64,000 nt of DNA from Haloglomus halophilum. GTDB lineage: Archaea; Halobacteriota; Halobacteria; Halobacteriales; Haloarculaceae. The stretch spans positions 3,161,149 to 3,225,148 of the forward strand of contig NZ_CP101166.1 in NCBI RefSeq assembly GCF_024298885.1. The letters are read 5' to 3'. The translations under genes were made by a program, and so were the position numbers. Under the pieces are notes generated by a model. That model worked only from the letters and a program-made list of their open reading frames with translations. It searched no databases and was not told the DNA's origin. Within the stretch, counting starts at the first letter, position 1, and every line of letters begins with the position of its first letter. Positions 10,322 to 48,182 of this stretch are shown here, piece after piece.

Positions 10322-11791
10322 ATGGGTGTGGGTGACCGGGAGCCGAGCGCTACCCCGGGTCGACAGCGGGCGTCCGCCAGACGCGACGGCGCGAGTGGCA
10401 TCGAGGTCGACGCCATCGCCGACCTGGGTGTCGACTTCGCTTTCCGACTCGACACCGGCGGCACGGTCACCGCCGTTTCCGGTGACATCGAGTGGCTCCT
10501 GGGAGCCACCGCCGAGGAGGTCATCGACCACAAGTTCGAGCAGTACATCGCCGCTGGGTCCCTCGAGACCGCGTACGACGCGCTGGACGCGGTGCTGTCG
10601 GGAGAGACCGTCCGCGGGATGGCACTCCGGATTGCCGGTGACGAGCGCCCCTGGATCGAGGTGAACGCTGAGCCGGTCCGGAACGCGGAGGGCGAAGTGG
10701 TCGCCGTGCGCGGAGCTGCTCGCGAGGCGACCGAGCGCCGCCGGGCCATCGAGCGCCACTCGGAGGCGATGAAGGGTGCCATGGACGGGATGGCGCTGCT
10801 CGACGACGACGGCTGCTATCTCTTCGTCAACGACGCCCACGCCGACCTGTACGGGTACGACCGCGAGGAACTCCTCGGGAACCACTGGTCCCAGCTCTAC
10901 GACCCGGCCGAGCAACGACGGCTCGAACGGGAGGCGCTGCCGGAGATGGTCGAGACGGGCGGCTGGCGCGGCCCGGCCGTCGGCCGGCGCGCCGACGGCT
11001 CCACCTTCCAGCAGGAACTCTCGCTGAGCGACCTCGAGGATGGCTTCGTCTGTGTCGTTCGGGACGTGACCGAGCGGACACGACGCGAGCAGATAATCGA
11101 CGTGCTCGACCGGGTGCTCCGGCACAACCTGCGCAACGAGATGAACGTGGTGCTGGGCGAGGCCGGGGACATCGCCCGGAACGCCGAGGGGGAGCAGGCG
11201 GCTGCCGCCGAGCGAATTCGTGACCGCGCCCGGAGCCTGCTGGCCGTGAGCGACACCGCGCGGACCGTCCGCGAGGTGGTCTCGGGCGACCACGAGACCG
11301 ACCATCTGGACCTCCGCTCGGCCGTCCGGCAGGCCACCGACCAGGTCGAGGCCGGGGGACACGACATCGCCACCAGCCTCCCGGAGCGCCCGCTCCACGT
11401 GGCGTCTCCCGGGTGCCGACACGCAGTGCGAGAACTCATCGAGAACGCCGTCGAACACGGCTCGACGAGCGGTCCGTCGGAGGCCGGGTCGGATGGCCCT
11501 GACGGCACCGCCCCGGCGGTCAGCGTCGACCTCTTCAGCTCCGAGGACCCGGGGGGTGCGCCCGTGGCCGTGCTTCGCGTGGCCGACAGTGGTCCGGGTA
11601 TCCCCCGGATGGAACGCCGCACGCTGGAGGAGGGCTCGGAGACACCGCTGCGCCACGGCCAGGGGCTCGGTCTCTGGCTGGTCAACTGGGTGACGACGGA
11701 GGCCGGTGGCGACCTCTCGGTCGACGAGTCCGACGACGGCGGGACCGTCGTCGAGATGCGGCTACCCCTGGCCGACAGTGCGGACGGGTGA
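10322..11791 (+). CDS. PAS-domain sensor histidine kinase
   Basis: 489-residue soluble kinase. Two PAS domains (about residues 25-145 and 150-260) precede a haloarchaeal-type H-box, VLDRVLRHNLRNEM (near 268-281), whose His is the predicted autophosphorylation site. The HATPase domain shows the N-box ELIENAVEHG, the G1 motif ADSGPGIP and the G2 motif GQGLGLWLV. There is no membrane segment and no receiver domain, so it probably senses a cytoplasmic cue through PAS and signals to an unlinked regulator. Start is ATG 10322, supported by a TATA box 30 bp upstream. Confidence 0.9.
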   Translation: MGVGDREPSATPGRQRASARRDGASGIEVDAIADLGVDFAFRLDTGGTVTAVSGDIEWLLGATAEEVIDHKFEQYIAAGSLETAYDALDAVLSGETVRGMALRIAGDERPWIEVNAEPVRNAEGEVVAVRGAAREATERRRAIERHSEAMKGAMDGMALLDDDGCYLFVNDAHADLYGYDREELLGNHWSQLYDPAEQRRLEREALPEMVETGGWRGPAVGRRADGSTFQQELSLSDLEDGFVCVVRDVTERTRREQIIDVLDRVLRHNLRNEMNVVLGEAGDIARNAEGEQAAAAERIRDRARSLLAVSDTARTVREVVSGDHETDHLDLRSAVRQATDQVEAGGHDIATSLPERPLHVASPGCRHAVRELIENAVEHGSTSGPSEAGSDGPDGTAPAVSVDLFSSEDPGGAPVAVLRVADSGPGIPRMERRTLEEGSETPLRHGQGLGLWLVNWVTTEAGGDLSVDESDDGGTVVEMRLPLADSADG

Positions 11792-11806: not shown

Positions 11807-12976
11807 TCAGATGCCGAACGTCGCGCGGAGCATGTCCCGGCTCCCCGGGCCGAGGCCGACCGCGAGGATGGCGATGAGCAGCAGGACCGCGTACCGTGGG
11901 CTCTCCTCGAAGATACGCCGGTCGAAGACGTAGATGACGGCGGTCGCGGCGACGAGCTTCACCGCGAGGAACGGCCACGAGGTGCCGATGGCGGTCGAGA
12001 GCCACTCCGGCTGGACCGACTGTGTGATATCGACGATGATGCGGTTGATCGGGTGCTTCGAGCCGTACTCGACGGGGACGCCGATGTAGTCGAGCCAGTC
12101 GGCCGACAGCACGTTCGCCACGCCGTCGACCGCGTGGCCGAACAGGACGACGAGCCCTGCACGCCCGGTCCCCTCGTTGATCACGGGCGCGTAGCGTTCG
12201 GCGCCCGCGTAGATGATGACCGCGAGGACCGCCGCGAGCACCAGCGTGACGATGGTCATCAGCGGGTAGAACCCGACGCCTGGAATCTCCGGGGCGATCT
12301 GCGTCGGGACGAACCAGAACAGGAAGCCGGTCGTGGCCAGCAGCGCGACGGCGCCCACGCCGAAGACGAAGCGGTGGTAGCTCTCGACGACCTCGCGCCG
12401 GTCCAGTGCGACCCCGACGACGAGCGCAGCCAGCGTCACCGCGAAGACGGTGAAGTAGATGACCGGGCTGATGATGAGCGTGTTCGCCGGGTACGAGAGC
12501 AGGTTCTCGACGCCCGCTTCGAGCGCGGCGTTGTTGGCGTCCTCGACGACCCGCAGCGCGCCGCCGAAGAACATGAACGGGGTCAGCGCGAAGAACAGAT
12601 CCAGCGACTCGCCGACCTCCAGGTAGCGGAGCAGGTAGAGGACCCCGATGAGGAAGAAGACGAGCGTGATGGCGTAGCCGGCCTCCGAGACGAGCGTGTA
12701 GCCCGGCTCGGCGACGATACTGCCGGCGTTGCGGGCGGCGCTACAGCGGGTCTCCCGGAACAGCAGCTCCGGGCCGCTGTCGGTCATCACGGCACAGCGG
12801 GCGCCCTGTGCGTCCGCGAAGACGGGGCCCCAGAAGTAGTGCCAGAGGAAACGGTCCCAGACGAGGCGGGGGAGGGCGGCGGCCCCGGCGGTCAGCGCGA
12901 CGACGGCGGCCGCCAGCGTCGCGAGCCACGCCCGTTCCGGGCTGATATCGAGGTCGAACCGCTCTGTCGCGGCCAT
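11807..12976 (-). CDS. DUF63 family multi-span membrane protein
   Basis: 389-residue membrane protein with roughly eight hydrophobic segments. The DUF63 pattern of a Trp/Phe-rich first periplasmic loop ([14 protein letters not shown] near residue 43) and the later block [18 protein letters not shown] are visible. Two Cys (near 60 and 78) lie in the first exterior loop. DUF63 is an archaeal family of unknown function. It converges on the histidine kinase gene with 15 bp between stops. Confidence 0.8.
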
Positions 12977-13104
12977 GTCCGGAGACCGGCGCGCCCGATG
13001 TTTCAGCGTTCCGGACCTGTGCCCGGGCGACGCACCGGCCCGTCCGGTCGCTGTGGTCCGGAACTGCCCCGGTGTTTTAGCCGGCTGCGGCCCTGCGCCC
13101 GCGT

Positions 13105-16878: not shown

Positions 16879-17028
16879 GCCCACCCGTCGAACACCACGC
16901 CGTATAGCGCTTCTGGCCGTTCCCGGTCGCCCTCGAACTGGGGCCGTTCCCAGGACTCGTCAGGTGGCTTCCAGTAGGATGATGCGGGGGAAGACCGCTC
17001 CGAGGCGGCCTTCCGCACGAGTTGCACG

Positions 17029-17112
17029 TGCGGGGGATGGGATTCGAACCCATGGACCTCTACAGGAGCGGATCTTGAGTCCGCCGCCGTTTCCAGGCTT
17101 GGCTACCCCCGC
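17029..17112 (-). tRNA. tRNA-Leu(CAA)
   Basis: Class II tRNA read on the minus strand. The 7-bp acceptor stem GCGGGGG/CCCCCGC is perfect, with discriminator A. The anticodon loop CTCAAGA on a GCGGA/TCCGC stem gives anticodon CAA. A long variable arm and a T-loop TTCGAAT follow. No intron is present and CCA is not encoded. Confidence 0.95.
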
Positions 17113-25006: not shown

Positions 25007-25072
25007 ACGCGCGCCGGAGGCGCGCGTTTCTCCGCTCCGAGCGACCGCAGGGAGCGAGGAGCGGCCTTTTTT
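25007..25072 (+). terminator. Double hairpin plus T-tract terminator
   Basis: ACGCGCGCC-GGA-GGCGCGCGT (25007-25027) is a perfect 9-bp hairpin. CCGCTCC (25032-25038) pairs with GGAGCGG (25058-25064), followed by TTTTTT at 25067-25072. Confidence 0.65.
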
Positions 25073-25079
25073 CTGAACG

Positions 25080-25189
25080 TTTTTTGCGGTGAGCGGTTCC
25101 GCGTTCGGGAGAGCGAAGCCCTCCCGCAGCCCATCAGAAATCGAAGATTTCTGAGGACGCCGCAGGCGCGGAACCCGAACCGCAAAAAA
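25080..25189. terminator. Multi-branched bidirectional terminator element
   Basis: TTTTTTGCGGT (25080-25090) pairs perfectly with ACCGCAAAAAA (25179-25189). Nested inside are GGTTCCGCG (25095-25103) with CGCGGAACC (25167-25175), a GGGAG/CTCCC hairpin, and CAGAAATC-GAA-GATTTCTG (25135-25153). It yields a U-tract on either strand, fitting its place between convergent genes. Confidence 0.75.
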
Positions 25190-25191
25190 GC

Positions 25192-26160
25192 TCACATGTA
25201 ACCGAGGTCGCGCAGCCGCTCCATCAGGTCCTCCTTGTCCTGGGCGCGGTTGCCGCGCTCGGAGGTGTTCTCCATGTCCTGGAGCCAGGCCGGTTCGTCG
25301 GCGGACTTGCCCGTCGAGACCTCGGAGCCGAGCGAGCGGAAGCCCTCGAAGTACTTCGGGGAGACCGGGATGTCCTCGGGGGTCAGGTCGTTCGGCAGGT
25401 CGTCGAGCGACTGGGGCACGTAGCCGTCGTCGGGGTACTCGGCGACCGTCTCCGGGACGACGAAGTACCAGAAGGCGTCCCACACGTCGGCCTCCATGAA
25501 CTGGAGGATGGGCTGGATGCGGTCGTGGGGCGGGTAGATGTCCGGGTCGTGACGCGGCGAGAAGAACGTCTCGTCCGCGCGGGCCTCCTGCTCGTCCCAG
25601 CGGATGCCGGAGATGATGCCGTCGATGTCGTACTCCTCGAGCGCGTCGTTCAGCGCGACCGTCTTGAGGAGGTGATTGCCGACGTACGTGTCCAGCAGGA
25701 ACGGGAAGGTGTCCTCCTCGTACTCGAGGATGTTGCGGACGTGGTGCTGGTTGTGCTCGGAGAGGGCGTCGATGGGGATGTCGTCGCCGGGTTCGAGCCC
25801 GTTCTCGTCGACGTAGTCACCGACGTCCGTGTTGCGGGCGTAGGCGACCTCGAGGTCCCACTCGTCGGCCCAGCGCTCGACGAAGTCCATGAGTTCGTCG
25901 AAGTGCTGGTAGTGGTCGATGAACACCGTCGGCGGCATCTCGAGGTCGAACTGGTCGACGACCTCCTTCACGAAGTACAGCGTGAGCGTCGAGTCCTTCC
26001 CACCGGTCCACATGATGGCCGGGTTCTCGTACTCGCGCAGCCCCGTCTCTACGACCTCGAGGGCCTTCTCGATCTTGTCCTCGATGGTCGGGTAGTCCTC
26101 GGGGTCCTCGTCCTCGCCGTCCGTGTAGTCGACGTCCAGGTAGTCGGGGAAGTCGGTCAT
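25192..26160 (-). CDS. CysD/PAPS-reductase-like protein (PP-loop ATP pyrophosphatase fold)
   Basis: 322-residue protein with the PP-loop WTGGKDSTLTLYF (residues 51-63). Further blocks GIRWDEQEARADETFFSPR and FRSLGSEVSTG, and the tail SERGNRAQDKEDLMERLRDLGYM, align by eye with CysD (sulfate adenylyltransferase small subunit) rather than with PAPS reductase, whose C-terminal Cys motif is missing. CysD normally works with the GTPase CysN, which is not adjacent here. The protein may activate sulfate or another oxyanion, or be a specialised PP-loop enzyme. The start ATG at 26160 lies just after an A+T-rich promoter. Confidence 0.75.
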   Translation of the reverse strand: MTDFPDYLDVDYTDGEDEDPEDYPTIEDKIEKALEVVETGLREYENPAIMWTGGKDSTLTLYFVKEVVDQFDLEMPPTVFIDHYQHFDELMDFVERWADEWDLEVAYARNTDVGDYVDENGLEPGDDIPIDALSEHNQHHVRNILEYEEDTFPFLLDTYVGNHLLKTVALNDALEEYDIDGIISGIRWDEQEARADETFFSPRHDPDIYPPHDRIQPILQFMEADVWDAFWYFVVPETVAEYPDDGYVPQSLDDLPNDLTPEDIPVSPKYFEGFRSLGSEVSTGKSADEPAWLQDMENTSERGNRAQDKEDLMERLRDLGYM

Positions 26161-40780: not shown

Positions 40781-41070
40781 CAGGCGGAGATATGGCCCTC
40801 TTCACGGAGCTGGTCGGCGTCCTGCTTGTCGTAGCGCCACGTGATGTCGCCCTTCTCGTCCTGCCAGTCCCACGGCTCGACCAGCACCACGTCGTCCTCG
40901 CGGATCCAGATGCGCTTCTGCATCCGTCCCGGGATGCGTGCGGTTCGCTCCTGGCCGTCCATACACCGGACCTTCACCCGGTTCGCACCGAGCATCTCCG
41001 TGACGACCGCGAACACCTCGTCATCGTCCGGCATGCGGAGGTTCTTCCGGCCGCCGTCGTCCTCGCTCAT
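40780..41070 (-). CDS. eif1A: Translation initiation factor aIF-1A
   Basis: 96-residue OB-fold factor that binds the small-subunit A site with aIF1 and aids start-codon selection. The core [55 protein letters not shown]-type region is intact and of normal length. Start ATG 41070; a TTTAAG-like box about 20 bp upstream is its likely promoter. It heads the operon with rio1 and a GNAT gene. Confidence 0.96.
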
Positions 41071-41257
41071 ACCCGCCGATTCGTCGGCCCGCAGTTTAAG
41101 TGCAATGCATGATTTCGCGGTATCGGCCGACGGGGTATCCCCGTCGTGGCCATCGTGGCTGTCGTGGCCGCGCGTGTGTCTCGTATGGCGAACGCCGGCC
41201 CCACGACGGCTCCTCGCAGCCCCTGGTTTAACGGTGCCTGCGAACAATTGCCAATCC

Positions 41258-41263
41258 TTTATT
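41258..41263 (+). promoter_or_regulatory. TATA box of the alcohol dehydrogenase gene
   Basis: TTTATT about 31 bp upstream of ATG 41292, placing the start of transcription a few bases before the codon. Confidence 0.5.
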
Positions 41264-41291
41264 GTGACGTACGCACTCTCCGCAGGACGCA

Positions 41292-42359
41292 ATGAGAGCC
41301 GTAGTTTTCCAGGGACCGGAGGAGCCGATGCAGGTCGAGGAGGTCGACCGCCCGGACTGCCCTCCGGACGGGGTCGTCATCGAGACCGAAGCCTGCGGGG
41401 TGTGCCGCTCGGACTGGCACGCCTGGCAGGGCGACTGGTCGTGGATCGGGATGATGATGACGGAGGGCCTCATCTTCGGCCACGAGCCCGTCGGCGTGGT
41501 CGCCGAGGTCGGTGACGACGTCGAGAACTTCCGCGAGGGCGACCGCGTCACCAACCCGTTCAACCTCTCCGACGGTACCTGCGTCCACTGCAAGAAGGGT
41601 CACCAGAACCGCTGTGAGCGCTCCATCCCGATGGGGTTCGTCAACTTCTCGACCGGCGCCTTCGCCGAGGAGTATCCGGTACGGGCGGCGGACACCAACC
41701 TCATCAAGCTCCCCGAGGGCGTCGATTCGGTCGATGTCGCGGGGCTGGGCTGTCGCTTCGCGACCGCCTTCCACGGCATCGCGCACCGCGTCGACGTCGA
41801 CCCCGGCGACTGGGTCGCCGTCCACGGCTGCGGTGGCGTCGGCCTCTCCGCGGTCCACACGGCCAACGCGCTCGGCGCGAACGTCATCGGTGTCGACCTG
41901 AACGAGGCCGCACTCGAGAAGGCAGAGGAACTCGGCGCGGACGAGACCATCAAGGTGGACGACGTACAGGACGTGCCGCAGGCGGTCAAGAAGAAGACGC
42001 CCAAATCGCGGGGCTGTGAGGTCTCCGTCGACGCCCTGGGTATCGCCCAGACCTGCCGAAACTCCGTCAACTCGCTCGGCAAGGGCGGCCAGCACCTCCA
42101 GATCGGCCTGACGACCAGTGAGGAGGGTGGCGAGGTCTCCCTGCCGGTCGACAACATCGTCACGGACGAGCGCGAGTTCATCGGCTCCTACGGGATGCCG
42201 CCCCACGAGTACGACGAGATATTCCGGATGATGGACAACGGCAAGATCGACCCCGGCGCCATCGTCTCCGAGACCATCTCGCTGTCCGAGGTCCCCGAGA
42301 CCATCGCCTCCATGGGCGACTACGACACGGTCGGGATTCCGGTCTGCAACAAGTTCTGA
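41292..42359 (+). CDS. Zinc-dependent alcohol dehydrogenase
   Basis: 355-residue medium-chain dehydrogenase/reductase. Catalytic zinc ligands are in [10 protein letters not shown] (Cys) and FGHEPVG (His-Glu); the NAD-binding turn is [10 protein letters not shown] (about 179-188). The structural-zinc loop reads [16 protein letters not shown], so three of the usual four Cys are present and the first is Asp. Length is normal. The substrate is not predictable. Start ATG 41292 has a TATA box 31 bp upstream. Confidence 0.92.
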
Positions 42360-42474
42360 TCGAGGCTTCGGGCCTCCCGTTCGGCCCGCAGTGTCTCGCT
42401 GTTCCTCTCGCTCCCGTGACAGCCGTCGTATGAGCCACGGCCCGGATAGCGCCTCGCGAGCGACCGAGTATTAA

Positions 42475-42507
42475 TGAATATGCATTCAATAACCGGTTGA
42501 TTTAAAA
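42475..42507 (+). promoter_or_regulatory. Palindrome and TATA box upstream of the PGF-CTERM gene
   Basis: TGAAT-ATGC-ATTCA (42475-42488) is a short palindrome in an A+T-rich patch. TTTAAAA (42501-42507) is a strong TATA box, placing transcription start near 42530, about 30 bp before ATG 42560. The palindrome sits just upstream of the TATA box, where an activator or TFB-proximal regulator could bind. Confidence 0.5.
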
Positions 42508-42559
42508 TACGGAGCGTTTCCGGCAGAGAACACTTCCGGGGTCATCTGAAGGCCTTCGC

Positions 42560-43801
42560 ATGGACCGGACGCATGGAATCGCGCTCGTGTTCGTCGGCGT
42601 GGTCGTGTTCGGGGTCGTGCCCGCGGCGGCAGGGATACATCCCTCCGACGGGGGGCACGCGGAGGAGCGGACGATGCGGTCCTCGCTCCAGGACGAGGGG
42701 ACCCCGTGGCTCGCGCCGGGTACCGGCGGCAAGGCGGTTCAGGGCCAGGAGGACGACGAGTCCCAGCAGTTCCCCGGGAACACGTCGTTCCGCATCGATA
42801 ACCACGCGCCCGGCGGGTCGGGGAACTCGTTCAACATCTTCGCCGTCGGGTTCAGCGAGAACATCCGGATGCACTGGAACGTGGTCCGGCAGGAGGACTT
42901 CCGCTGGGACACCTGCACCTCCACGGACGCCACGGCGTTCGGCATCGACCGCGGGAACGACGACCCGGGGACGGAGACCGACCAGAGCCTCCTCAACGCC
43001 TACCGGTCGGTGACCTACACGCAGGACGGTATCTACGTCCAGTTCTTCAAGGAGGACAGCCTCGGCGGGTCACCGGTCAACATCACGGTGAACGACCAGA
43101 TCGTCTCCCGGGTGACCAACTGCCTGCAGAACCCCGACGACCCCGGATGGTACCGGCTGACCGGCTACATCAACGGCTCCACGCAGATGGACGCGAACAC
43201 CGACTACACCATCTACGGGGCCGCGAAGTACGTCTACATCTGCGAGAACTGCGACAGCCGGCAGGACGCGGTCGAGAAACTCGGCCCGCCGCCGACGACC
43301 TGCCCGCCGACCGACGAGTTCGCCCGGGACTCGAAGGAGTGGACCTGCCGGACCCAGGACGGCGAGTACTACACGCGCTCGAACCCCCCGTCCGGCGGGG
43401 ATCAGACGGCGACCGCGATGCCGACCACGACCTCACCCCCCGGCTCGACGCCGGCCGACACGCCCACCCCGACGCCCGGGGCCACTGCGGCGGCGACGCC
43501 CACGCCGACCCCGACATCGGCGATGGGCCCCGACACGCCCACGGTGACCGACAGCTCGACTCCCACCGATCCCCCGACGGACGCGGAGACGGTCGGTGAC
43601 GACGAGGACGACCCTGGTGGCACACCGACGGCGACCCCCGCGCCGGGTACGACCGCCGGCCCCTCTGGACCTGACGGGACCAGCACCCCCGGAACCGGGG
43701 TCCGGACCCCGACCGCCGGCTCGGGGCCGGGCTTCGGCGCCGTGGTGGCACTGGTCGTGCTGGTCGGCGCCGCCCTGCTGGTCCGGCGTGCCGACGGCTG
43801 A
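42560..43801 (+). CDS. Secreted PGF-CTERM surface protein
   Basis: 413-residue exported protein. A signal peptide (MDRTHGIALVFVGVVVFGVVPAAAG) leads to a Cys-containing ectodomain (about 40-270) with Cys pairs including CTSTD, CENC, CPP and WTCRT that may form disulfides. A Thr/Pro/Asp-rich spacer (about 285-385) precedes GSGPGFGAVVALVVLVGAALLVRRADG, a textbook PGF-CTERM signal for archaeosortase A, which would cleave it and lipid-anchor the protein. The spacer is probably O-glycosylated. No catalytic motif is seen. Confidence 0.8.
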   Translation: MDRTHGIALVFVGVVVFGVVPAAAGIHPSDGGHAEERTMRSSLQDEGTPWLAPGTGGKAVQGQEDDESQQFPGNTSFRIDNHAPGGSGNSFNIFAVGFSENIRMHWNVVRQEDFRWDTCTSTDATAFGIDRGNDDPGTETDQSLLNAYRSVTYTQDGIYVQFFKEDSLGGSPVNITVNDQIVSRVTNCLQNPDDPGWYRLTGYINGSTQMDANTDYTIYGAAKYVYICENCDSRQDAVEKLGPPPTTCPPTDEFARDSKEWTCRTQDGEYYTRSNPPSGGDQTATAMPTTTSPPGSTPADTPTPTPGATAAATPTPTPTSAMGPDTPTVTDSSTPTDPPTDAETVGDDEDDPGGTPTATPAPGTTAGPSGPDGTSTPGTGVRTPTAGSGPGFGAVVALVVLVGAALLVRRADG

Positions 43802-43858
43802 CGACGACCCGTCGTCTGCCGGCGCGTGCGGCGAACGGGCCGCGCGTCGCGGCACTAC

Positions 43859-43946
43859 CGCCGGACGACCTCGACCTCGTGGCCGTCGTCGGTCCTCGTG
43901 AAGGCGTACATCTGGTTGCAGGATTCGGGGTCGCGATAGTCCGCAG
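43859..43946 (-). repeat. 88-bp direct repeat, copy of the VOC gene 3' end
   Basis: Identical to 46304-46391, the last 29 or so codons of the VOC gene at 46300-47076. Read on the minus strand it encodes the same C-terminal peptide, ending VEVVRR, and reaches its own TAG stop at 43855-43857. The gene body is absent, so this is a fragment. Confidence 0.9.
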
Positions 43947-44005
43947 GTGGTGGTCTCCGAGCGTGTTCTCGGGGCCCCGAAGTCGTAGCGGCGCCGGAGC
44001 GGTGG

Positions 44006-45979
44006 TCAGCCGGGGCCTTCCGTCTTCGACCCGGCGAACTGCGGGTTCTCCTGATAGAAGTTCCCGCCGGCCCTCACACCGGACACGTACCTGTCGTGGG
44101 CCACCGCGTACTCGTGGGCCTCGTGCCAGCTGATCTCGCCGTCGTTGTCCGTATCGACCTGGGCACTCGGAACGCTGGTGCCGTTGGGGTAGGTGCCGGC
44201 GAGCGCGGCCACGAAGTGATACCCGAACGGTTCGACGCCGTTCTGACCGGTGGTCCCGTAGGACACCTCGTCGTTCGGGCTGGCCGTCGAGATAGCGGTC
44301 ACGACCGGGTCGCTCGTCCCACCCTGCTGCATGAGGTCGACGTTCGGCTGGTCGCTCCGGGCGTTCAGGAACTGCCCAGCGTAGCACTGCATCATGTTCA
44401 CGTACGCCTCGTCGAGTCCTGCACGTTCGAGGCGCTCGAACTTGCTCCGGAGCTCCCTCGGGGTCAGCCTGGCGTCGTCACCATACCAGCCGACCAGATT
44501 CAGCCCCTCGGGGTCGCTGTCGGTCCCGTGATTGGTGGTGAACAGCATCACCTGGGATTCCACGCCACAGTCCTCGATCCGTGATTCGAGCCGGTCGAAC
44601 GAGGTGTTGATGGCAGACTCCGTGGCGTTGCCGTCCACTATCGAACGACCGTTGACCGTGGTCGCGTGCCCAGTTCCGGTTCCTCGGTAGTAATGGACGA
44701 ATATCTGGTCGTCCGGGAGTCCGAACGAGCCGTTCATGGCCTTGTAGGTGTAGCTGACGTCGTTCCAGTATCGCTGGTAATTGGACCCGGAGTTGACACC
44801 TCCCGTGACGATGACCGCGAACCGGCACTCCCCCCGGTCGTACACGAGGTCGGGGAAGTACGTGGGGTCGATACGTTCGCGGACCTCGACGAACTCGATG
44901 TAGTCGCTCGGACCGAGAATCTCGTACTCCTCGATCTGTAGTTCGACCTCGGGTGTCTCCTCGCCGTCGTCCTCACTGGACGCGACCTGCCCGACCAGCT
45001 CGAAGCGGTAGCTCTCCGACCACTCCGCGCGCTCCGACGATGGGACCTCCGCCGTGTCGAGCAGCAGGGTGCTCTCGGCCGGAAGCACCCGGTTCTGGGC
45101 GACCCGGCTGTAGTTCTCGACGAGCACGCTGTTGTCGACCTCGCCCTGCGCGACGAGGTTGTTGTGCAGCGCCCCCCGGACGCGGACCCGCTCGCCGGTC
45201 CACCGCTCGGGGTCCTCGTTCAGCTCCTCGATGGACACGGTCGGGATCTCCTCCTGGTCGTCGGGCGTGGGCGACGACTCGGTCGTGGGTGTCGGGTACG
45301 CCGTTCCCGTCACCGTCGGATTCGTTCCCTCGTGCTGGATGCAGCGGTAGAGACGGTCCAGCCGGGACCGTTCGGCCGTGTTGGCCTGCTCGTAGATGCT
45401 CCCCAGCACGACGTGATCGCCGCCGTGCTCGACGCGCACGACCTCGACGAAGACGTCGACCGGATCACCGTCCTGGGTCCCGGTCGCGGTGAAGCGCGTT
45501 CGGGTCGCCGTCGTCCCCAGCGTGGTCACCTCGTCGGTCCCTTCCTGCTGGAGGTCCTGCAGTGACCCGTACTCGTCGAGTCCCGAGTCGAGGTTCTCGA
45601 CCATCTCCCGGGGCGACCAGGTCCGGACCGGGTTCAGCGACTGGCCCGCCGCCTCCGCCTGTGGCGTCGTGAACACCGCGAACCCGCCCTTCGACTCGGT
45701 CCCTCCCTCGCCGTCCGGACCCTCCCGGGCGTAGCTGTTCACGTAGTTCGAGAAGGAGACGTTCCGGGACTGCCCACCGACCTCCAGCGTCCGGGAGACG
45801 TTCTCCCAGCGCGACAGTTCGTTCGTGTACCCCGTCGTCGAGAGTGCCTCGTCGCAGGCGCTGGCTGGCGAGGCGGTGAACGCGAGCGGCCCCGACAGCA
45901 TCGAACACCCGCTCGACAGAACGACGAGTGCGAGCAGTATCGTGGCAGTGCGGCGGCGGACGGCTGGGCTCGCAGCCAT
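44006..45979 (-). CDS. Caspase-like (C13/clan CD) lipoprotein with EF-hand
   Basis: 657-residue exported protein. An RRR-containing n-region and a lipobox LSSG-C25 give a membrane anchor. Residues 26-225 form an uncharacterised domain; 245-355 resembles an OB-like fold (LNEDPERWTGERVRVRG). A caspase/legumain-like fold follows: ECRFAVIVTGG (384-394), catalytic-type His in LFTTNHG (H484) and Cys in MMQCYAG (C532). An EF-hand-like calcium loop DTDNDGEISWHE is at 609-620. A TATA box at 46077-46085 lies 26 bp before an in-frame ATG at 46054, which would extend the N-terminus by 25 residues; 45979 was chosen for signal-peptide geometry. The gene fills the island between the 88-bp repeats. Confidence 0.75.
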   Translation of the reverse strand: MAASPAVRRRTATILLALVVLSSGCSMLSGPLAFTASPASACDEALSTTGYTNELSRWENVSRTLEVGGQSRNVSFSNYVNSYAREGPDGEGGTESKGGFAVFTTPQAEAAGQSLNPVRTWSPREMVENLDSGLDEYGSLQDLQQEGTDEVTTLGTTATRTRFTATGTQDGDPVDVFVEVVRVEHGGDHVVLGSIYEQANTAERSRLDRLYRCIQHEGTNPTVTGTAYPTPTTESSPTPDDQEEIPTVSIEELNEDPERWTGERVRVRGALHNNLVAQGEVDNSVLVENYSRVAQNRVLPAESTLLLDTAEVPSSERAEWSESYRFELVGQVASSEDDGEETPEVELQIEEYEILGPSDYIEFVEVRERIDPTYFPDLVYDRGECRFAVIVTGGVNSGSNYQRYWNDVSYTYKAMNGSFGLPDDQIFVHYYRGTGTGHATTVNGRSIVDGNATESAINTSFDRLESRIEDCGVESQVMLFTTNHGTDSDPEGLNLVGWYGDDARLTPRELRSKFERLERAGLDEAYVNMMQCYAGQFLNARSDQPNVDLMQQGGTSDPVVTAISTASPNDEVSYGTTGQNGVEPFGYHFVAALAGTYPNGTSVPSAQVDTDNDGEISWHEAHEYAVAHDRYVSGVRAGGNFYQENPQFAGSKTEGPG

Positions 45980-46299
45980 ACCCAGCCAGCCGTAAATCCG
46001 GCGGCAGTTCCCCAGCACTCCGCTCCCCCGTACCCGCTCGGCGATCCGGACCATATTGCGTGTGATATATGCACACGAAATAAAGCATTCTCCTGTTGTC
46101 GGCAATCTGATACATGGGCAGGTGAGGCCCCGCAGCGTATATCGAGGGGTGAACGGTGCCGACGAGAATCCGATGGTCGGAACCTTTCCGGACCCGCACG
46201 AGAGAGGGTGAACCCCAGGCTCCGGAGACGGACGTTGCGTGTTCGCGAGCGGAAACGGATTCTATAGCGCCGGACGGCGGTGCGCAACGCGCTCGAACG
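45980..46299. other. Intergenic region upstream of the caspase-like gene
   Basis: About 320 bp without a convincing gene. It contains the minus-strand promoter (CTTTATTTC at 46077-46085 and a second ATATAT box at 46064-46072). No transposase or integrase remnant is visible. Confidence 0.65.
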
Positions 46300-47076
46300 T
46301 CAGCGCCGGACGACCTCGACCTCGTGGCCGTCGTCGGTCCTCGTGAAGGCGTACATCTGGTTGCAGGATTCGGGGTCGCGATAGTCCGCAGCGTCCCGGA
46401 GCATCAGCGTCTCCCAGGCGTCGTTCAGGTCGTCGGCCCGCACGGCGAGGTGGCCCCACGCGTCACCCATCTCGTAGGAGCGGCCGTCGTAGTTGTAGGT
46501 GAGCTCGACGCTCATCGCCTCCTCCGGGGCGCCCTCCGGCCGCATGAAGTAGAGCGCGAAGTCGTCCAGTTCGACGCGACGGTGCATCTCGTAGCCGAGT
46601 TTCCGGGCGTACCAGCCGATGGCGGCGTCGGCGTCCTCGACGCGGAGCATCGTGTGGTCGAGGGACCAGCGCGCGCCGTGGTCGCGCTCGACGATCTCGA
46701 TCTCGTGGCCGTCCGGGTCCGTCACGAAGGCGTAGTGCCCCCCGCAGGACTCCGGGTCCCGGTAGTCCTCGACGCCCCCGTCCATCAGTTCCTCGTAAGC
46801 CTGGTGGACGTCCTCGACGCGGACGGCGATGTGGCCCCAGGCGTCGCCGAAGTCGTAGGTACGGTCGTCGTGGTTGTAGGTGAGTTCGAGGACGGCGCCC
46901 TCGTCGTGGCGGTCCTCGGGGGCGAGGAAGACGTTGGTGAACGTGTCGGCCTCCATCCGGCCCTCCTCCACGTAGTCGAGATGGGTCGTGTACCAGTCGA
47001 CCGACTCTTCGAGGTCCTCGACCCGCATCATGGTGTGGTCGAGCGTCGCGTCGAGCGAGGTGTCGGAGTCCAACAT
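46300..47076 (-). CDS. Two-domain VOC (glyoxalase-type) protein
   Basis: 258-residue protein made of two vicinal-oxygen-chelate modules (about 10-128 and 137-257). Each begins LDHTM-R-VEDxxxxxxWY and each contains a VELTYNxDxRxYxxGDAWGHxAV block, typical of lactoylglutathione lyases and dioxygenases of this fold. The His and Glu ligands of two betaalphabetabetabeta units can supply one or two metal sites. Its substrate is not predictable. Its last 88 bp are duplicated at 43859-43946. Confidence 0.9.
   Translation of the reverse strand: MLDSDTSLDATLDHTMMRVEDLEESVDWYTTHLDYVEEGRMEADTFTNVFLAPEDRHDEGAVLELTYNHDDRTYDFGDAWGHIAVRVEDVHQAYEELMDGGVEDYRDPESCGGHYAFVTDPDGHEIEIVERDHGARWSLDHTMLRVEDADAAIGWYARKLGYEMHRRVELDDFALYFMRPEGAPEEAMSVELTYNYDGRSYEMGDAWGHLAVRADDLNDAWETLMLRDAADYRDPESCNQMYAFTRTDDGHEVEVVRR
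46304..46391 (-). repeat. 88-bp direct repeat, VOC gene 3' end (intact copy)
   Basis: Perfect match to 43859-43946 at a spacing of 2445 bp. Together the copies bracket the caspase-like gene and its promoter. Confidence 0.9.
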
Positions 47077-47275
47077 TGGCTGCGACTACTCGCGCGCGAG
47101 CGAAAAAGGTGGTGACAGCGATGGGTTCCCGGGTGCGACCCGGCGGCCGGGGTCGAGATGGACAGCTGCCGTATCTGGTGGCTTTCTTACGGAATCCTCG
47201 ACTATGCTATTTCAGAAGCGATTTAGCAGTTAATATGGCTGTCTGGTCAGCAATACACTCCGCGACGGTTGGGGG
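47077..47275. other. Intergenic, low-GC patch
   Basis: About 200 bp. The stretch 47180-47255 is clearly A+T-richer than its surroundings and can be read as SYGILDYAISEAI-stop on the plus strand, possibly a degenerate coding remnant. Not assignable by eye. Confidence 0.35.
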
Positions 47276-47527
47276 CTATCCGTCCAGTTCCGGGTCGTAC
47301 CCGCCCTCGTTCTCGCCGCCCGCGCGTGGCTCGACGCCGACCTGACGGAGCGCCTCGTAGTAGGTCGACGCGTCGGCTTCGCCGACGAACGTCGCGAGCG
47401 CGTCGTGGTCGAGTTCCCAGGCCGCGTACTGGACGGCACCACGATTGAGTGGGTGGTCCACCTCCTCGGACGCCAGCGCCTCGGCGAGCTGTTCGCGCAC
47501 CTCGTCGGTGATGGGGACGCGGGTCAC
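47276..47527 (-). CDS. Hypothetical protein, partner of the J-domain gene
   Basis: 83-residue acidic helical protein starting at GTG 47527 (MTRVPITDEVREQLAEAL). No family is recognised. It begins 25 bp after the stop of the membrane J-protein gene on the same strand, so the two probably form an operon. The conserved-looking segment is NRGAVQYAAWELDHDALATFVG. Confidence 0.65.
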   Translation of the reverse strand: MTRVPITDEVREQLAEALASEEVDHPLNRGAVQYAAWELDHDALATFVGEADASTYYEALRQVGVEPRAGGENEGGYDPELDG

Positions 47528-47552
47528 GGTGTGGCCCCTCCGACCTGGGAGT

Positions 47553-48182
47553 TCACGACGCGGCCTCCCCGGTGGCTGCGGCCTCGCGGGCCGCCGTGTA
47601 CGCTTCGCGCACGCGCTTGAACTCGTCCTCGTCGCCGCCGTGGTCCGGGTGGACCTGCTTGACCTTCCGGCGGTAGGCCGCCCGGACCTCGGACTCGCTC
47701 GCGCCCTCCGGCAGCCCGAGGACGGCGAACGCCTCGTCGTAGGGCTTCAGGTCCCGCTCTGCGGGGTCGCGGCCGAGGTCGACCTCGGGCGTCTCGAACG
47801 GGAGTCGCGAGCCCAGATGGATGCCCGGCAGCTCGTGCTCGACGAGCACCGGGTGGGTCGCGGTGCGCTCCAGGCGGTAGAACGTCCGCGGGTCGAACGT
47901 GATGGCCACGTCGCGGCCGGGAAGGTAGAACTCGACGCTGGTCCCGGCGACGGGGTGGTTCTCGGCGTAGGGCTCGTCGATGGCGTCGAGGTACTCGCGG
48001 ATCTCGACCGTCCGGCGTTCGCTGTCCGTGTTCGACCCAGACCCACCACCGGTGCCCCGGCCGGGGAACCAGCGTGTTCCGACGTAGAACAGCCCGGCGG
48101 CGCAACAGCTCGCGGCGAACCCGAGCAGCAGTCCCACGACGATCCATCGCGGGACCCCGAACCACAGACCCTCGCTCGGCAC
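47553..48182 (-). CDS. Membrane-anchored J-domain protein
   Basis: 209-residue protein. One N-terminal transmembrane helix (about 12-34) is followed by a soluble middle domain (about 50-135) and a C-terminal J domain (about 142-195, YDEAFAVLGLPEGASESEVRAAYRR...HPDHGG). The HPD tripeptide that stimulates Hsp70 (DnaK) ATPase is intact. It would recruit DnaK to the membrane. The start is GTG 48182, with a TATA-like ATACTTA 28 bp upstream. Confidence 0.82.
   Translation of the reverse strand: MPSEGLWFGVPRWIVVGLLLGFAASCCAAGLFYVGTRWFPGRGTGGGSGSNTDSERRTVEIREYLDAIDEPYAENHPVAGTSVEFYLPGRDVAITFDPRTFYRLERTATHPVLVEHELPGIHLGSRLPFETPEVDLGRDPAERDLKPYDEAFAVLGLPEGASESEVRAAYRRKVKQVHPDHGGDEDEFKRVREAYTAAREAAATGEAAS

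Follow-up and report, generated by a model that had tools for sequence, protein, structure and literature searches.

Inspection of a 64,000-nucleotide stretch of the Haloglomus halophilum genome (hereafter the window) revealed a caspase/legumain-like lipoprotein gene flanked by two identical copies of the 3′ end of a VOC/glyoxalase gene. Together with a neighboring surface-protein-like gene, it occupies a slot bordered by VOC and an alcohol-dehydrogenase-like gene (ADH). The features of the locus are as follows:

41292–42359, plus strand: alcohol-dehydrogenase-like gene (ADH; PF00107/PF08240), the other border of the variable slot
42560–43801, plus strand: PGF-CTERM surface-protein-like gene (TIGR04126 above cut-off)
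43855–43857, minus strand: in-frame stop TAG of the left repeat copy, read from the sequence
43859–43946, minus strand: left repeat copy, orphan 3′ end of VOC (88/88 identity to the right copy; the frame runs on to its own stop)
43947–44005: junction between left copy and caspase-like gene, assigned by position, without an S element (see below)
44006–45979, minus strand: caspase/legumain-like lipoprotein gene (DUF6517 + Peptidase_C13; ORF and Pfam)
45980–46299: spacer between VOC and caspase-like gene, of which the first 63 bases from the VOC stop resemble the relative G002 (0 of 1,000 shuffles score as well)
46304–46391, minus strand: right repeat copy, live 3′ end of VOC (88/88 identity to the left copy)
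46300–47076, minus strand: two-domain VOC/glyoxalase gene, 258 aa, stop TGA (ORF; PF00903, E 1.8e-27)

The repeat copies lie on the same strand at an offset of 2,445 bp and agree at 88 of 88 bases, confirming an earlier sequence-only reading of this DNA that had them matching at every base. ORF analysis and frame reading likewise bore out its claim that the right copy is the genuine VOC 3′ end and the left a fragment without gene body: the latter comprises the last 29 VOC codons and its own in-frame TAG, the live gene ends in TGA, and the identity stops one base short of the stop codon. As the left copy holds only these 29 codons, a full tandem VOC copy is ruled out, and so is a tRNA attachment site, the only tRNA found in the window being located at 17028–17112. 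No recombinase gene was detected between the repeats by ORF and Pfam analysis, the sole gene there being of another kind, in line with the previous statement that no integrase lies inside. Searching the window's own genome with the 88 bases (best 40 of 258 candidates scored) returned six matches at E ≤ 0.001, namely the two full copies, the first domain of VOC (75%), and three pieces of 25–38 bp.

The caspase-like protein comprises 657 aa from its ATG, with a lipobox-like LSSGC motif identified by eye, a DUF6517 domain (PF20127, E 1.4e-43), and a Peptidase_C13 domain that exceeds its cut-off by a narrow margin (PF01650, 23.8 vs. 22.8 bits). It resembles peptidase family C13 (legumain-like) in this above-cut-off match and in the sequence context of its histidine (NHG) and cysteine (QCY), but differs from that family in that the C13 part is fused to a DUF6517 lipoprotein part. 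Of the previous description as a single caspase/legumain-type lipoprotein gene with H484, C532, and an EF-hand, the gene and both residues stand, whereas the EF-hand-like loop scores below cut-off. H484 and C532, which we take to be the catalytic histidine and cysteine, are both retained in G002, the only full-length relative found. Among 77 genomes, full-length matches were confined to the window's genome and G002, all others reaching only to about residue 270. Over 392 genomes of the order, a sample that does not include G002, the C13-like part was found in the window's genome and, as a weak match (E 1e-3), in G376. A Peptidase_C13 search of 391 genomes of the class returned none; it missed the window's own gene as well and therefore says nothing on absence. 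PADLOC and NCBIfam contained no family for the protein at E ≤ 0.1, PDB sequences no match at E ≤ 1, and a literature search joining caspase-like, archaea, and peptidase C13 yielded no paper. A viral or plasmid origin of the cargo was considered and rejected: no relatives of the protein were present in viral contigs or phages, and the two matching plasmid records cover the DUF6517 part only. VOC was not found in viral contigs; VOC-like ends occur in four plasmid records, one of them at an unannotated place. The dN/dS of the whole gene against G002 is 0.33 and thus indicates purifying selection; the cargo, judged by these motifs, is a probable cysteine protease, exported and anchored in the membrane, that is maintained under such selection.

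Comparison with Haloglomus relatives revealed the content of the slot to vary. ADH is colinear in G001, G002, and G003. In the nearest relative, G002 (16 of 22 bins of 200 bp at ≥95% identity on the ADH side), ADH is followed by a ~0.24-kb spacer, the caspase-like gene, and VOC; the left copy and the surface-protein gene seen at 42560–43801 of the window are both missing from its slot. In G001, the slot holds a RimK-like ATP-grasp gene with a protease-like tail, and a 70% relative of the surface-protein gene is encoded elsewhere in that genome. The protease-like part of the window's cargo is absent genome-wide from G001 and G003. H. irregulare has a TAG-ended VOC gene, in a 20.8-kb locus without match to ADH or the caspase-like gene. 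The ADH–VOC stretch is, consequently, a slot whose cargo differs from one Haloglomus genome to the next. The sequence-only reading had suggested looking among relatives for an empty site with one copy, which G003 provides: its ADH–VOC gap of ~0.1 kb is empty and there is a single VOC end. The repeat as a mark of the caspase-like gene's entry is not supported, since G002 carries that gene beside VOC without a left copy, an observation that the sequence-only reading had itself named as refuting; the gene can occupy the slot without the repeat. From the earlier picture of an element with a duplicated attachment block, the layout, the empty relative, and the missing recombinase are supported and the repeat as entry mark is not. 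Local duplication with insertion, offered at the time as the alternative, fits better than entry via an attachment block.

Divergence between the window's genome and G002 speaks to the relative ages of cargo and repeat. Synonymous divergence (dS) is 0.197 for ADH, 0.20 for codons 1–384 of the caspase-like gene, 0.67 for its remaining codons, and 0.36 for VOC; judged by these values, the region is a mosaic. The 5′ part of the caspase-like gene has diverged like the backbone and is therefore older than the split between the two genomes. In a neutral 88-bp copy of that age, ~8.7 changes would be expected on one branch, and none is seen (probability of none ~2 in 10,000), so the repeat is either younger than the cargo or was kept identical by gene conversion. 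A decidedly unlikely version of the latter has the caspase-like gene and the repeat entering together in a common ancestor, with G002 losing the left copy later and conversion preserving the window's pair, which would restore the repeat as an entry mark. It draws on the observation that VOC fragments in another genus, g14 (see below), are by eye nearer to their own gene than to each other, as conversion would cause, but needs both a loss and a conversion bounded at 88 bases to reconcile some nine expected changes with the absence of any. As to the flanks, that of the right copy is shared with G002 (0 of 1,000 shuffles as good). The left-copy flank has no clear likeness to any of the four relatives: 47 of 1,000 shuffles scored as well for G002, 127 for G001, 181 for G003, and 591 for H. 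irregulare. The claim of a second source version therefore rests on the stop codon and gene order.

Starting from the window, we compared VOC ends with their own downstream DNA (up to 18.5 kb) at 183 loci, 80 of them named, a survey that covers loci around VOC. Anchoring on the stop codon succeeded for 182 of the 183 and left 161 distinct VOC ends. The longest exact match in a reverse-complement control of these 161 was 17 nt, and a chance origin of the repeat is thereby excluded. BLAST identified matches at 15 loci, 11 of which represent a same-strand downstream fragment reaching the gene end; weak matches of 24–37 nt at L114, L154, L218, and L240, two of them on the other strand, were discarded. 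Fragment lengths vary from 31 to 165 nt. Besides the window (88 nt, located 2.35 kb past the stop), fragments occur in G022 (165 nt at 91%, ~1 kb past it), in Halorientalis regularis (L087; an exact 33-nt match that takes in the stop, at 0.8 kb), in G114 (51 nt), in G039 (31 nt), and in six species of genus g14 (40–62 nt, 105–386 bp off; two copies in one species). In a seventh species of g14 (L182), an exact match of 19 nt was recorded, and the species of this genus may share one event. When matches were left free to end anywhere, exact ones ended within 4 nt of the end of the stop codon at eight loci (L087, L162, L172, L182, L192, L195, L242, and L256). Of the exact matches reaching at least 17 nt, those at L222 (17 nt), L218, and L227 (18 nt each) were set aside as lying near the control maximum, and L228 as a tandem repeat behind the stop.

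Other genes at the same loci, called by GC frame plot, served for comparison (ORF length alone had flagged only three VOC hits). A fragment within 3 kb was recorded for 11 of 141 called VOC genes, in six genera, vs. one of 2,202 other genes (Fisher p = 3e-13, or 3e-7 with each genus counted once); without the window, the figure is 10 of 140. These counts derive from 19 hits, comprising the 11 at VOC, seven between neighboring paralogous genes, which were dropped, and one other (L121). This sole non-VOC hit looks like an acidic tail common to two successive genes, presumably ribosomal-stalk genes. Because the count was restricted to matches whose end fell no more than 8 nt from the stop, the free-ended matches were used to place the edge.

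Where inserts accompany the fragments, their gene content differs. For instance, the H. regularis insert encodes a PIN-domain protein (PF01850, E 6e-14) together with a small ORF that matched no family above cut-off, and that of G022 contains an ORF resembling DUF7387, just below cut-off, with a VapB-like/PIN pair beyond the fragment. The gene end copied beside other inserts in several genera makes this spot look like a repeated landing place for DNA; the sequence comparisons identify the VOC 3′ end as a hotspot whose pattern resembles insertion with long target duplication. This wider result is stronger than the attachment-block reading of the caspase insert. A rival possibility is a non-autonomous integrative element whose recombinase is encoded elsewhere and whose attachment core lies in the last ~30 bases of VOC, so that each arrival would bring a new gene end and displace the old one, as do elements targeting tRNA genes. 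The use of one gene end in six genera with an edge at the stop codon, and the exact 33-nt repeat including the stop in H. regularis, which looks like an attachment core, favor such an element; we nevertheless regard it as unlikely, for there is no recombinase between the window's repeats, the length of the shared block ranges between 31 and 165 nt, and the left copy is missing beside the cargo of G002.

At VOC in g14 and in genus g4, covariance-model matches identified the insert as a dispersed, hairpin-rich repeat, which we term S; the G114 insert is weakly S-like (E 0.18). Out of 142 family members searched, 91 genomes contain matches to S at E ≤ 1e-6, and Rfam returned no match over S at ten loci. 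A core alignment of 47 copies contains covarying pairs, one of which appears as A-U in 19, G-C in 18, and U-A in 7 copies. Among 48 S copies drawn from the best matches, 29 have on their right a 25–136-nt duplicate of the left-hand DNA, vs. 0 of 104 shifted controls. All 29 duplicates start within 8 nt of the right end of S and 25 include a gene's stop; at L274, L277, L280, and L302, the left-hand original is flush with S, as target duplication would give. The window's genome has at least 30 S-like elements by covariance model (E ≤ 0.01; 150 of 5,943 candidates scored), and in G002 one S sits directly behind the ADH stop, in the same slot as the window's insert. Within 41000–48000 of the window itself, no S match better than E 0.95 was obtained, and S as a direct cause of the arrangement was therefore dismissed. 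Nor do S duplications form a rule for all genomes: none was detected beside the 49 S-like copies examined in Haloglomus and in four genomes besides. By an uncontrolled heuristic, 39 of these 49 terminate at a convergent gene's stop. We regard S as a parallel case rather than a demonstrated cause of the window's arrangement.

The window could conceivably owe its repeat to an insertion process shared with S, with a long target duplication of variable length, in which the insert is placed behind a stop and the preceding 25–165 bases are copied to its far side. The duplications at 29 of 48 S copies against none in the shifted controls, the S inserts with such copies at VOC in g14 and g4, and the S behind ADH in the G002 slot speak in favor of this proposal. 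The window's insert contains no S, all 49 S-like copies in Haloglomus and the four further genomes lack a duplication, and cargo-type and S-type inserts may be unrelated, leaving the proposal improbable for the window. More broadly, haloarchaea might possess a hitherto unrecognized insertion process, involving no known recombinase, by which DNA is joined directly behind a stop and the 25–165 bases before it are copied to the far side; it would spread the multi-hairpin element and carry whole genes at hotspots, among them toxin-antitoxin-like pairs and the caspase-like protease; we put this forward as a speculative idea, doubtful though worth considering.

Our preferred, if tentative, reading of the window, to which we assign a probability of roughly 40%, is an in-series join of two slot contents, made through homology at one side and by an illegitimate junction at the other. 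The VOC 3′ end would constitute the edge where cargo gets joined. One content would end in the surface-protein gene, with a TAG-ended VOC next to it, the other would consist of the caspase-like gene followed by the TGA-ended VOC, and the two halves would stem from two versions of one locus. With the illegitimate side falling 88 bases inside the VOC coding end, the product would be a full VOC gene, the cargo, and an orphan VOC end, and the join could be made by recombination without a dedicated enzyme. Such a join would explain why the copy is truncated, why there are two stops and no recombinase, and why fragment lengths vary, and the edge would be fixed at the stop codon because coding DNA is alike between versions and the flanks are unlike.

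In favor of the in-series join are the exact repeat with separate stops, the G002-like right flank, the mosaic dS values with a caspase-like gene too old for an unhomogenized repeat, and the empty or differently filled slots of relatives. The excess of VOC-end fragments over those of other genes, their edge near the stop codon at eight loci despite lengths of 31–165 nt, and the non-recombinase nature of the one enclosed gene also count in its favor. Against it, the left flank is not clearly similar to that of any relative, and the least common shuffle outcome (47 of 1,000, G002) does not help the join; none of the four Haloglomus genomes compared has the presumed partner version, with the surface-protein gene directly beside VOC and no caspase-like gene. 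For the 88 bases to agree throughout, both sources must have been identical over that stretch, or conversion must have followed. Frequent hits on a single gene are, moreover, not expected from undirected illegitimate joining, and may reflect a trans-acting enzyme or a process in common with S.

Searches of the literature on long target duplication, haloarchaeal attachment sites, homology-facilitated illegitimate recombination, and small repeats retrieved no title or abstract opening describing a VOC hotspot. Three known systems offer comparisons. Integrative elements with archaeal tyrosine recombinases insert at gene 3′ ends, leaving the gene end intact and displacing the old one (PMC8371274). 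The window shares the intact gene end and the displaced old end with the elements described there, but its insert encodes no recombinase and adjoins a protein-coding gene instead of one for a tRNA, the block varies, and a sister genome is without one side. The eight free-ended matches stopping within 4 nt of the stop codon could reflect a shared attachment core, yet block length varies. In homology-facilitated illegitimate recombination, linear DNA joins by homology at one end and illegitimately at the other (PMC3240628). By analogy, a second join inside the shared gene would give gene, cargo, and gene fragment; the process was described in bacteria (PMC3240628).

Insertion with long target duplication was reported for restriction-modification genes with duplications of ~100 bp (Nobusato et al. 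2000; Furuta et al. 2010, as cited; PMC3874152, PMC3031569, PMC1643837). Common to both settings are a gene-bearing insert without its own transposase and a long direct repeat of variable length, recognized by genome comparison. The window presents a single-copy empty relative (G003) and a variable long repeat (88 bp here, 31–165 nt elsewhere). It differs in cargo, with DUF6517 + Peptidase_C13 in place of the restriction-modification genes that are reported and perhaps not required. Further differences are that the inserts of other genera carry toxin-antitoxin-like genes or a hairpin element, that the hosts are haloarchaea, and that the pattern recurs at one gene's 3′ end. We do not claim membership of this class, because repeat and insert may differ in event: G002 has the insert without the repeat, and the dating conflicts with one event for both, barring conversion of the copies. 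The long target duplications around restriction-modification genes raise the question of how small accessory genes lacking their own transposase enter chromosomes; the recurrently duplicated VOC 3′ end provides a defined target for testing such entry, among organisms that include transformable species, and the S element adds many further cases of the same pattern.

Silent-site divergence from the nearest Haloglomus relative (G002) was threefold greater in the protease-like part of the caspase-like lipoprotein gene (window 44009–44827; dS 0.67) than in its lipoprotein part (dS 0.20), a difference that points to replacement of one half of the gene. Both the window's own genome (G000 C1:240165–240869) and G002 (C1:284552–285256) encode a second protein, part of which is 54% identical to residues 8–244 of the caspase-like lipoprotein; these second proteins sit in a long open frame.

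In another relative, G001, the same slot between the alcohol-dehydrogenase-like (ADH) and two-domain glyoxalase (VOC) genes is occupied by a different protein:

L069 7902–9251, in G001: an ATP-grasp protein of RimK-like type whose tail resembles a zinc or aspartic protease; ADH–VOC slot.

In a further haloarchaeal MAG (locus L153), a 72-bp repeat (10841–10912 and 12943–13014; 91.7% identity) encloses two genes that lie shortly downstream of VOC. The repeat is no fragment of VOC.

Element S, found at VOC in some genera, is a dispersed, hairpin-rich sequence of about 100–195 bp (loci L260–L318, e.g. L263, L274, L277, L280 and L302), for which an Rfam search over ten loci returned no match. Its matches recur at an even 160–170 bp spacing, as in a tandem array, at G089 C1:1319197–1319792 (L310) and G006 C1:701639–701876, and its covariance model weakly matches window 25060–25195 (E 0.002). 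The stems of S show covariation. Beside 29 of the 48 S copies examined, the 3′ end of a gene is repeated as a long direct copy.
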